A stretch of 62,397 bases of DNA from a virus. A model generated the notes under the pieces. It was not told the DNA's origin. It saw nothing but the letters and a program-made list of their open reading frames with translations, and did not search any database. The translations under genes were made by a program, and so were the position numbers. The DNA lies in the IMG/VR virus record IMGVR_UViG_3300022752_000070, positions 1 to 62,397 of that record; one strand, given 5' to 3'. Shown here in pieces: positions 50,113 through 54,278 of the stretch; within the stretch, counting starts at the first letter, position 1, and every line of letters begins with the position of its first letter.

Positions 50113-50134
50113 GTGCCACTTCCTCAACTGGCAC
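50113..50134 (-). repeat. inverted repeat GTGCCA...TGGCAC of the intergenic promoter cassette
   Basis: Perfect six-base inverted repeat at the 3' end of the ligase-like gene. Related copies lie at 51073-51079 (half), 51403-51424, 52280-52301, 52561-52581, 60436-60455, 60614-60635 and 61114-61134, each at a gene end just before a G/C-rich spacer and a promoter for the next gene. Confidence 0.65.
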
Positions 50135-51341: not shown

Positions 51342-51425
51342 GGGGGTTTCCGTTTCAACAAAGGTAGTATGGCGCCGATCGGGGGGCATTGCAACCCCCC
51401 TTGTGCCACTTGCTCAACTGTCACC

Positions 51426-51968: not shown

Positions 51969-52093
51969 TTACGAAGAGGAGAATTGTAGTAACGACGAAA
52001 AGCAGTGAGAAGAATAATGCCCGTTGAAACAACACCAACCAAACCAAGGAAGGTGATAGCATCTCCAGAAAAAGTATAGGTATCAGGTGTCAT
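51965..52093 (-). CDS. single-pass membrane peptide
   Basis: 42 residues, read directly. A short polar start (MTPDTYTFSGDA) is followed by one hydrophobic segment (ITFLGLVGVVSTGIILLTAF) and a basic tail (RRYYNSPLRK), so the tail should face the cytoplasm. It is held in the operon by ATGA overlaps at both ends. A role at the host membrane, such as blocking competing phages, is possible but unproved. Confidence 0.7.
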   Translation of the reverse strand: MTPDTYTFSGDAITFLGLVGVVSTGIILLTAFRRYYNSPLRK

Positions 52094-52218
52094 CAGTAAT
52101 CGTAGTTTGCGTTCAGGTACTCATTGACATCGAACTTTTCATCTTTGAGTTCAGGAATGTCAAGGTCAAAAATCTCACCAGGCATGTCTTGAATCTCAGA
52201 CCAGAGTTCATCAAACAT
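52093..52218 (-). CDS. small acidic protein
   Basis: 41 residues from the ATG at 52218 (MFDELWSEIQDMPGEIFDLD), chosen over a longer frame because the upstream part runs through the promoter cassette. A CCTGAG ribosome-site-like stretch precedes it. Acidic (pI low), with an ELKDEKFDVNEYLNANYDY end. Couples to the membrane peptide by ATGA. Function unknown. Confidence 0.65.
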   Translation of the reverse strand: MFDELWSEIQDMPGEIFDLDIPELKDEKFDVNEYLNANYDY

Positions 52219-52297
52219 TGTGGAAATCTCAGGAACAAATGTAATGTAGAACGGATCGGGGGATTCCGCAACCCCCCTTGTGCCACTTATCCGACTG

Positions 52298-52501
52298 TCA
52301 CACCTCATTCATTAATTTTAAACGATTCATAATATTATAAACTTCCATCTCATCCATATCGATCTCACTCATATCGACAGGGGCAAATTCTTCGAGATTA
52401 ATATTACCATTGGCATAAATCGGGGCATAATATAACTCATCCCCATCTTCCTGCGACAAAGTATACACACAACCGTGATTGGTGGAGGTGAGAAAAATCA
52501 T
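52298..52501 (-). CDS. small acidic conserved protein
   Basis: 67 residues from the ATG at 52501 (MIFLTSTNHGCVYTLSQEDG), chosen because the region before it carries a cassette repeat and a -10-like box. It has a beta-strand start, a YYAPIYANGNINLEEF centre and an acidic EIDMDEMEVYNIM helix. It is followed by a copy of the intergenic inverted repeat at 52280-52301. Function unknown. Confidence 0.65.
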   Translation of the reverse strand: MIFLTSTNHGCVYTLSQEDGDELYYAPIYANGNINLEEFAPVDMSEIDMDEMEVYNIMNRLKLMNEV

Positions 52502-52583
52502 GTTCAATTGCGACAACGAAGGTACAATATCCCAGATCTTCGAAGATATCAAGTCCCCATGTGCCAGTTCCTCAACTGTCCTT

Positions 52584-52639
52584 ATTCTCAATAAGATCTT
52601 GTTGTTGAGAATCAATAAGGATTAATAATTGAGAATAAG
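52584..52639. repeat. left arm of a 56-base inverted repeat pair flanking the control island
   Basis: Three boxes, ATTCTCAATAA, TTGAGAATCAAT and TTGAGAATAAG, occur in a 56-base span. The reverse complement of 53297-53352 has the same three boxes at the same spacing. The outer boxes of this arm also form a perfect 13-base inverted repeat (52580-52592 with 52628-52640). Confidence 0.85.
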
Positions 52640-52661
52640 GACCAATATTCGAACTGGCACA

Positions 52662-52814
52662 TTACTCGAACGGATCGAATTCTTTTACCCTACAATGTAC
52701 ATCTTCCCCTGGTTCGAGTTGCAATAACTCACACCAATCGATATCATCTAGATCTAGATCATCATAACACATGATGTCTAGTGTCACCTGTACGATACGC
52801 TTCTGTGCTAACAT
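52662..52814 (-). CDS. small acidic protein inside the control island
   Basis: 50 residues, read directly: MLAQKRIVQVTLDIMCYDDL then DLDDIDWCELLQLEPGEDVH and a CRVKEFDPFE end. The IDW-ELL-LEP-E-V--RV-EF-PFE pattern is familiar from short cyanophage proteins. It is the first gene of the leftward small-gene array and lies just after a good sigma-70 type promoter (52839-52867). An early regulatory role is plausible from position only. Confidence 0.7.
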   Translation of the reverse strand: MLAQKRIVQVTLDIMCYDDLDLDDIDWCELLQLEPGEDVHCRVKEFDPFE

Positions 52815-52838
52815 GATGCTCTCGTGCGATGTGATTAG

Positions 52839-52867
52839 ATTATATCATGCATAATGACGATATGCAA
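52839..52867 (-). promoter_or_regulatory. sigma-70-like promoter reading left
   Basis: On the minus strand TTGCAT (52862-52867), a 17-base spacer and TATAAT (52839-52844). It is 25 bases before the 50-residue gene. It faces away from the plus-strand promoter at 53181-53210. Confidence 0.7.
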
Positions 52868-52934
52868 GTGATTCGTAATCATGCCCATCTCGTGCATAAT
52901 CCTCATCTAGATCTCGTGCGTCTTGTGTATAATA

Positions 52935-53148
52935 CTCTTCGAGATCGTATGAGTAATCCGATGCGTATGTATAGTCGAGATCGTAGTCGTCGTACATAAC
53001 TCGTCGAGATTGATTGAATACTTGTACAGTGTAGCACGTTCTCGACGAGATTGCAATCCCTTATGATGCACCATCTCGTCGAGACTCATAATGATATATA
53101 TGTATCTCGTCGAGAAATGTTAAGATATGCTTATAATTCTCGTCGAGA
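52935..53148. repeat. iteron-like array of the palindrome CTCGTCGAGA
   Basis: Copies start at 53000, 53041 (CTCGACGAGA), 53075, 53106 and 53139, with degenerate copies at 52935 and 52971. Spacing is 29-41 bases, mostly 31-36, near three helical turns. No protein gene is convincing from 52815 to 53422. The array looks like binding sites for a dimeric regulator or a replication initiator. Confidence 0.8.
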
Positions 53149-53180
53149 GATGTGTGAGTCTCGCAGGATCTCGTGGGGGG

Positions 53181-53210
53181 TTGACATCTCGGGGTCTCGT
53201 GTGTTATAAT
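53181..53210 (+). promoter_or_regulatory. near-consensus sigma-70 promoter on the plus strand
   Basis: TTGACA (53181-53186), an 18-base spacer and TATAAT (53205-53210) with an extended TG motif before the -10. It is the best promoter in the window and the only good one on the plus strand. No plus-strand protein gene follows. Confidence 0.85.
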
Positions 53211-53352
53211 GCGCTCGCTAAGGTCACAAGTCTCGGAGGCATTTAGAAGACTTTATGAACACAAGTCTCGGAGGTCCTTTATAAGCATTTAGAAGACTTA
53301 TTCTCAACTATAATACTCAATTGATTCTCAATTAATTTAAATTATTGAGAAT
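53211..53352 (+). ncRNA. candidate small RNA with tandem GGAGG hairpins
   Basis: Downstream of the plus promoter, CACAAGTCTCGGAGG occurs at 53225 and 53260, and GCATTTAGAAGACTT at 53239 and 53285. Each pair can fold AAGTCT with AGACTT, leaving GGAGG in the loop. The transcript would then enter the right 56-base arm, which can form alternative hairpins. The 3' end is undefined because no U tract follows. A nine-codon reading frame (MNTSLGGPL) starting at 53256 is possible but unconvincing. The RNA has not been shown to exist; the call rests on the promoter and repeats. Confidence 0.5.
53297..53352. repeat. right arm of the 56-base inverted repeat pair
   Basis: Contains CTTATTCTCAA, ATTGATTCTCAA and TTATTGAGAAT with box centres 24 and 20 bases apart, the mirror image of the left arm. 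Boxes 2 and 3, or 1 and 3, can pair in RNA but not both at once. Confidence 0.85.
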
Positions 53353-53357
53353 GTTAT

Positions 53358-53384
53358 AAAAAAAACATATTAGTTCTTTAATAT
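53358..53384 (-). terminator. weak A/U hairpin terminator for the 54.6-53.4 kb genes
   Basis: On the minus strand ATATTA-AAGAAC-TAATAT (53367-53384) is followed by G and eight U. It lies about 40 bases after the stop of the zinc-ribbon gene and would stop leftward transcripts from entering the control island. The stem has no G/C pairs, so efficiency is doubtful. Confidence 0.5.
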
Positions 53385-53422
53385 ATTAATTAATTAAATT
53401 TAACTTATTTTAGTATAATTTG

Positions 53423-53680
53423 TTACCATTTATCAATCGGACAGGATGCAGCCTTGAACTTAGTCTTATGCACCAACCAACAACCACAATGCTTACAACG
53501 TTCCTGTCTTACACTATAATACTCACACGTCTTACATATATCCAACCTTTCTTGAATTTGTTTATCGGATGCATAGATCTGAGGATCCTGAGCAACAACA
53601 ACATCCTTCACCACTTCAAATGTGAACTTTGCTAGATTCTTTCCTTGTTCGGCAATTGATGGAAACTGTTTTTCTGACAT
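53423..53680 (-). CDS. small zinc-ribbon protein
   Basis: 85 residues from the ATG at 53680, which has a GGGGAGG ribosome site. The end carries CKTCEYY, then RCKHCGCWL, and a final CPIDKW, a four- or five-cysteine zinc ribbon seen in many phage and bacterial small proteins (DUF6171-like). The first half is helical. A second protein with the same ending is encoded two genes away at 54265-54591. It may be a chaperone or recruitment factor for the oxygenase between them. Confidence 0.8.
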   Translation of the reverse strand: MSEKQFPSIAEQGKNLAKFTFEVVKDVVVAQDPQIYASDKQIQERLDICKTCEYYSVRQERCKHCGCWLVHKTKFKAASCPIDKW

Positions 53681-53684
53681 AAGA

Positions 53685-54278
53685 TTACCTCCCCAAATAG
53701 AACCATCCAGTGACAACATACTTAGTCCCTTCCAGAACTAATCCTCCACGATGAGCATGAGTCATACCAGCAGGCCATATCAATAACTTACCTTTCTCTG
53801 GTTGAATACGTTTCTTATAATACAAGAACTCAGTCTCTCCTCCCTTATAATCATCATTCAAATATAACATCCAAACCAGTGCTCTGGATGAATGTTCTAA
53901 TCCACTGTTCTCATCGTGCCAAACATGATAACCACCACCAGCAGGAGTCTTTTGTACCTTCTGTGACAATGAATACAAGGGCACCTGTTTCATATGACCG
54001 AAGACTTGTGTATACTCTTCTAAACAAGATTTCAGAACCTCATTTAATTCATGTGCAGAGTTTCCTTTCATAGACTGTTGCATATTGATTAAATCAAGTG
54101 CCCAGTCGAATCTTCCTGCATTGGAATTATCAAACTGTCGATCCTCACAATAGACAGAATCAATGCTCTGATAATAATCAAATGTACGAATGATTTCATT
54201 ACAAAAATCAGAATTTACAATACAGGAATATGATCCTATGAAGTCTTCATATATTCCTTTGAGTTCAATCTTTTCCAT
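53685..54278 (-). CDS. 2-oxoglutarate/Fe(II) oxygenase, prolyl-4-hydroxylase-like
   Basis: 197 residues. The iron site reads GYHVWHDE with His121 and Asp122/Glu123 and a distal THAHRGG with His174/His176. LYLNDDYKGGETEFLYY is the classic P4H strand before it, and a late Lys186-Tyr187 in TKYVVTGWF may hold 2-oxoglutarate. Such oxygenases hydroxylate proteins or bases, and T4-like cyanophages carry several of unknown target. It lies between two zinc-ribbon genes and overlaps the upstream one by 14 bases. Confidence 0.9.
   Translation of the reverse strand: MEKIELKGIYEDFIGSYSCIVNSDFCNEIIRTFDYYQSIDSVYCEDRQFDNSNAGRFDWALDLINMQQSMKGNSAHELNEVLKSCLEEYTQVFGHMKQVPLYSLSQKVQKTPAGGGYHVWHDENSGLEHSSRALVWMLYLNDDYKGGETEFLYYKKRIQPEKGKLLIWPAGMTHAHRGGLVLEGTKYVVTGWFYLGR

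Follow-up and report, generated by a model that had tools for sequence, protein, structure and literature searches.

Two inverted three-box arms bracket a small control island in the genome of a T4-like cyanophage, and these arms share both sequence and geometry with the operators of cyanobacterial fur promoters. They are best read as DNA operators, and the regulator that can best be named for them is host Fur, whose binding is suggested by sequence likeness. On balance we lean towards a scheme in which host Fur would bind both arms and control a divergent early region, itself a candidate origin of replication. The island consists of known kinds of parts; as a combination that is unreported in the literature searched, it is a new variant.

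The island and its two arms

The window analyzed here, 62,397 bases long, is a T4-like cyanophage fragment recorded in IMG/VR. Among annotated phages, Synechococcus phage S-SRM01 (Kyanoviridae) is its closest relative, and the phage is a virus of freshwater cyanobacteria. Genes flanking the island lie on the minus strand. The first-pass annotation had called the island non-coding, which does not hold, since two small minus-strand ORFs with homologues in relatives lie inside it. One (52662 to 52814, 50 aa) belongs to PHROG 12516, function unassigned, and its homologues mark the island in relatives; this 50-aa ORF gave no match as a tblastn query, and its SynMITS9220M01 homologue, used in the same way, did give matches. 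The other (52845 to 52997, minus strand, 50 aa) is rich in Asp and Tyr, with a similar reading frame in S-SRM01 and S-T4, read directly.

The left arm (52584 to 52639) is placed just past the ORF at 52662 to 52814, outside the promoter region proper. Its boxes occupy 52584 to 52592 (plus), 52604 to 52612 (minus), and 52628 to 52636 (minus); those of the right arm (53297 to 53352) occupy 53300 to 53308 (plus), 53324 to 53332 (plus), and 53344 to 53352 (minus). The arms had been described as inverted copies, and so they are: 41 of 56 positions match (73%), with box centers 20 and 24 apart in one and 24 and 20 in the other, as claimed. Chance pairing in A/T-rich DNA does not account for the match, as 100 dinucleotide shuffles, scored by the best 56-nt inverted match within 52001 to 54000, averaged 31.2 with a maximum of 34, none reaching 41. 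In the same 2 kb, exact ATTCTCAA occurs six times on either strand against 0.22 expected, each time inside an arm. Each arm comprises the inverted repeat ATTCTCAATWA-N7-TTRTTGAGAAT once, together with a third half site.

Whether the arms are conserved was asked in relatives retrieved through the small ORF at 52662 to 52814, independently of the arms (80 loci, reduced to 44 distinct islands). The right array is present in 29 of the 44, accompanied by the left array in 23 of these 29. No left array without a right array was found among the 44, and the co-occurrence (Fisher p=2e-7) should be taken as descriptive because the loci are not phylogenetically independent. Seven distinct islands carry neither the right array nor DnaA boxes. 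Isolates display a similar range: S-SRM01, whose host is KCZYC6, retains two boxes of the right array (2 and 3) and a weak left-type site, TGTTTGATTCTCAATAA; DSL-LC03 combines the right array with seven DnaA boxes; Bellamy and S-T4 each have a single box; and SynMITS9220M01 has promoter and AT-rich DNA without boxes. A pattern scan of IMG/VR contigs recovered more than 120 three-box arrays, and across 128 distinct arrays the box starts lie 22-25 and 21-23 apart. Host oriC was considered as a carrier of the array and rejected, because only 11 three-box matches, scattered and chance-like, turned up in 257 Gb of genomes from bacteria and archaea.

Likeness to cyanobacterial fur promoters

Within the left arm, the fur-type dyad (52584 to 52612) reads ATTCTCAATAA-GATCTTG-TTGTTGAGAAT; its counterpart on the right (53324 to 53352) reads ATTCTCAATTA-N7-TTATTGAGAAT. 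Both have the geometry 11-7-11, and at 21 of 22 each they are the joint best N7 dyads of the 62-kb window, where the best unrelated match scores 17. The Anabaena FurA consensus AAATAAATTCTCAATAAAT was derived from DNase I footprints, with FurA binding to its own promoter as the positive control (PMC4005646); this consensus and the phage box TTATTCTCAATAA have the 11-mer ATTCTCAATAA in common. The arms thus resemble a cyanobacterial fur operator (FurA boxes) in half site (ATTCTCAATAA / TTRTTGAGAAT), in inversion, and in the 7-bp gap. Of the possibilities raised at first pass, two sites for one regulator is the one that these shared features of sequence and geometry favor.

The pattern holds for fur promoters across cyanobacteria, whose inverted repeat is ATTCTCAATAA-N7-TTRTTGMRAAT. 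Among 40 such promoters, spacing peaks at N7 (16.15 versus 12.28±0.14 in shuffles), the gap found in both window arms. A scan of 244 cyanobacterial genomes located the dyad in 69, mostly larger than 3 Mb, with few matches to a reversed-pattern control. Where fur could be located, 45 of 87 sites among the matches listed fall within 250 bp upstream of it, and the dyad lies upstream of fur in 31 of 35 checked genomes having both the repeat and a located fur. In many cyanobacterial fur promoters (for example, L365 and L367) the dyad occurs twice, at a distance of exactly 48 bp. As a host motif, the single palindrome TTATTGATTCTCAATAA was also tried and set aside: it is over-represented in cyanobacteria, but most inspected sites belong to coding sequence or repeated gene families, and one site only among them is upstream of fur. 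This poor placement led to the dyad test.

There are also differences. The arms sit in a phage genome with no fur gene alongside, and the window phage has two of them, inverted, about 710 bp apart, and with three boxes each, an arrangement that differs from the cyanobacterial fur operator. Neither the third box nor the palindrome TTATTGA-N3-TCAATAA has an established counterpart in fur promoters. In picocyanobacteria, the likely hosts (a group assigned here from genome size, GC content, and family search), the half site CTRTTGAGAA is preserved upstream of fur and the gap is N6, also where genomic GC exceeds 65%; in Cyanobium-like GC-rich genomes this half site reaches 15.16 against 9.82. Among 128 phage arms, by comparison, the gap is N8 in 71 and N7 in 50, with N6 rare, so that most are 1-2 bp off the picocyanobacterial spacing.

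Such departures could also be expected if the boxes were iterons whose reader, an initiator or repressor encoded by the phage, recognizes fur-operator-like sequence, with host Fur uninvolved. That the three-box arrays are practically confined to related phages, that the full palindrome and third box exceed the fur dyad, that the gap departs from that of picocyanobacterial fur promoters, and that box sites are interchangeable with DnaA boxes would all suit such a protein. Fur promoters, however, have the same 11-7-11 dyad, alike in sequence and in geometry, and such a match is hard to obtain by chance. No Fur domain (PF01475) was found in 11 phage records and no DnaA C-terminal domain (PF08299) in 10, nor is a candidate protein of phage origin known. 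We regard a phage-encoded reader as doubtful. Since the phages checked lack Fur, the reader of a Fur-type operator would be the host protein.

DNA sites rather than RNA switches

The arms had also been likened to symmetric attenuators or RNA switches, in which outgoing transcripts would pair box 3 with either box 1 or box 2. Part of this picture fits, as transcripts leaving in both directions would cross the arms from the promoters predicted at 53181 to 53210 (plus) and 53056 to 53028 (minus), and in sequence the boxes complement one another. The expected signature of selected pairing does not follow: a comparison of boxes 2 and 3 in 26 distinct right arms, collected without requiring intact boxes, gave 37 one-sided deviations and 0 compensatory changes. 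Pairing of the bases just outside the boxes is not above re-paired controls in right arms, and left arms have a weak excess (p 0.03; 0.21 on the mean). Folding of the right-arm leader RNA does not exceed that of shuffled sequence (z -0.8 and -1.3). Left-arm RNA of the window does fold strongly (z -5 to -6), partly owing to a surrounding generic GTGCCA hairpin, and the extended pairing is lost in most relatives. An Rfam search returned no match. In sister phages, moreover, the right arm is replaced by DnaA boxes, which are same-strand repeats and cannot form the right-arm hairpin. The want of compensation, of additional right-arm pairing or folding, and of inverted symmetry in the replacement boxes argues that the arms act as DNA sites, and an RNA switch seems very improbable.

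An intergenic hairpin, GTGCCANTT-N-AACTGKCAC, repeats at 50113 to 50134, 51403 to 51424, and 52280 to 52301 (3 exact copies versus 0.01 expected). It also flanks the left arm (52559 to 52570 / 52651 to 52662) and is frequent in relatives.

Divergent promoters, unstable DNA, and a candidate origin

The rightward sigma-70 promoter (53181 to 53210, plus strand; TTGACA-18-TATAAT) matches consensus at 12/12 positions, runs antisense to the flanking genes, and is conserved in relatives; in SynMITS9220M01, the sole 12/12 gene-opposed promoter of the genome sits at the island. A leftward promoter is predicted at 53028 to 53056 (minus strand; TTGCAA-17-TACACT, with TGC before the -10), and S-SRM01 has TTGCAT-17-TATAAT in the same place. 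Between the two lies a cluster of CTCGWCGAGA palindromes (53000 to 53148), candidate operators that account for nearly all of the 12 matches in the window (1.2 expected). The predicted leftward promoter has one copy in its spacer. S-SRM01 has three separate clusters (85571-85730, 88165-88252, and 90908-91005), so this palindrome may be a phage-wide operator.

Downstream of the rightward promoter, the leader (53225 to 53299, plus strand) contains the duplicated units CACAAGTCTCGGAGG and GCATTTAGAAGACTT; it is built from short tandem units, which vary greatly in copy number among relatives, the distance from promoter to first box ranging over 53-258 bp. An AT-rich region of duplex-unwinding type follows at 53332 to 53432. 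In a nearest-neighbor profile it holds the window's least stable stretches at lengths of 60, 80, and 100 bp, about 120-150 bp downstream of the rightward -10. The right arm thus sits between the 12/12 promoter and the least stable DNA. In S-SRM01, SynMITS9220M01, and S-SKS1, island DNA likewise ranks within the least stable 0.02-0.08% of the genome; in DSL-LC03 it is not among the least stable (2.6%). What changes among relatives is the array type; the promoter, the leader repeats, and the AT-rich tract are kept.

Directly downstream of the right arm, many relatives have an ORF with a GIY-YIG-like start (for example, L010 1507-2340 (-), which is plus strand in window orientation). The ORF is absent from the window, and the island could be read as what remains (promoter and leader) of a homing-endonuclease-like gene that this phage has lost. 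Promoter, boxes, and unstable DNA nevertheless persist in relatives and isolates that have no such ORF, and the Pfam GIY-YIG match (13 bits, E 0.13) is below cut-off, which makes a lost endonuclease gene extremely unlikely as the explanation.

A different comparison is with T4 oriF and oriG, each a promoter with a DNA unwinding element (PMC4412123). The island, in a T4-like phage, has the same layout of a promoter reading into the least stable DNA. It departs from the T4 origins in having a host-consensus instead of a middle-mode promoter and in placing host-regulator operators or DnaA boxes between promoter and unwinding element. On this layout we consider the island a candidate replication origin. 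GC skew in four complete relatives is uniform, without reversal at the island, and T4-like phages, which have several origins, may show none. Our literature search found no replication origin for T4-like cyanophages and no relevant pairing of cyanophages with Fur boxes or DnaA boxes.

The origin reading is strengthened by exchange of the arm with the cyanobacterial DnaA box, TTTTCCACA (PMC4674748). This box occupies the right-arm slot in 8 of the 44 distinct islands and also in S-SM2, S-SCSM1, and S-SKS1. Within the 172.8-kb genome of DSL-LC03, 7 of 10 TTTTCCACA boxes fall within 460 bp at the island (80123-80579), as do 2 of the 3 in S-SM2 at its own island. Sister phages that carry 2-3 TTTTCCACA beside AT-rich DNA resemble the DnaA-box arrays of cyanobacterial oriC (PMC4674748). 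The window does not: it is without TTTTCCACA, TTNTCCACA is absent from its island, and fur-type boxes fill the slot.

Replacement at one slot bears as well on the idea that the arms are a Fur sponge, in which high-copy phage DNA would titrate Fur and derepress host iron-stress genes, with no role for the sites at an origin or promoter. Six host-type boxes per genome and many genome copies during infection would be well suited to titration. Yet titration leaves unexplained why the right arm is fixed between promoter and unstable DNA and why DnaA boxes replace it there, and we think a pure sponge unlikely.

With Fur-type operators here and DnaA sites in sister viruses, the island looks like a replication-start region wired to host regulators. 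In the scheme we prefer, with host Fur on both arms, the arms would bracket a divergent early control region: the leftward promoter would drive the two tiny genes and read towards the left arm, and the rightward sigma-70 promoter would send its transcript over the right arm and on into the window's least stable DNA. Metal-loaded Fur on both arms could block or slow both outgoing transcripts and might bridge the arms by looping. Fur would leave when iron runs short, under oxidative stress, or when replicating phage DNA titrates it; transcription could then enter the unwinding region and assist in starting phage replication, in the manner of T4 origins. The slot held here by Fur-type boxes would be occupied by host DnaA in sister phages.

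More tentatively, the island may represent an iron-responsive viral origin: in T4-like cyanophages, a host DNA-binding protein would gate the firing of a transcription-started origin, lineages would swap host DnaA boxes for host Fur operators at one slot, and replication would read the iron or redox state of the host. If so, abundant aquatic viruses would couple early transcription or genome replication to the iron regulator of the host, and related viruses could exchange iron-regulator control for a replication initiator. The island offers an exact locus for asking where replication starts and whether iron status sets the timing of infection.

Other arrangements of DnaA boxes occur. Three loci (L294, L303, and L309) have them on the other strand, adjoining promoter-like sequence that faces them, and have a second inverted box pair past the AT-rich tract, a differently arranged candidate origin. 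A further family, outside the reach of the small-ORF search (L285, L287, L290, L296, L301, L302, and L312), has TTGACTTTCGAGTG promoter-like DNA, ATGTTTTTTAATACATTTAG, and two DnaA boxes.
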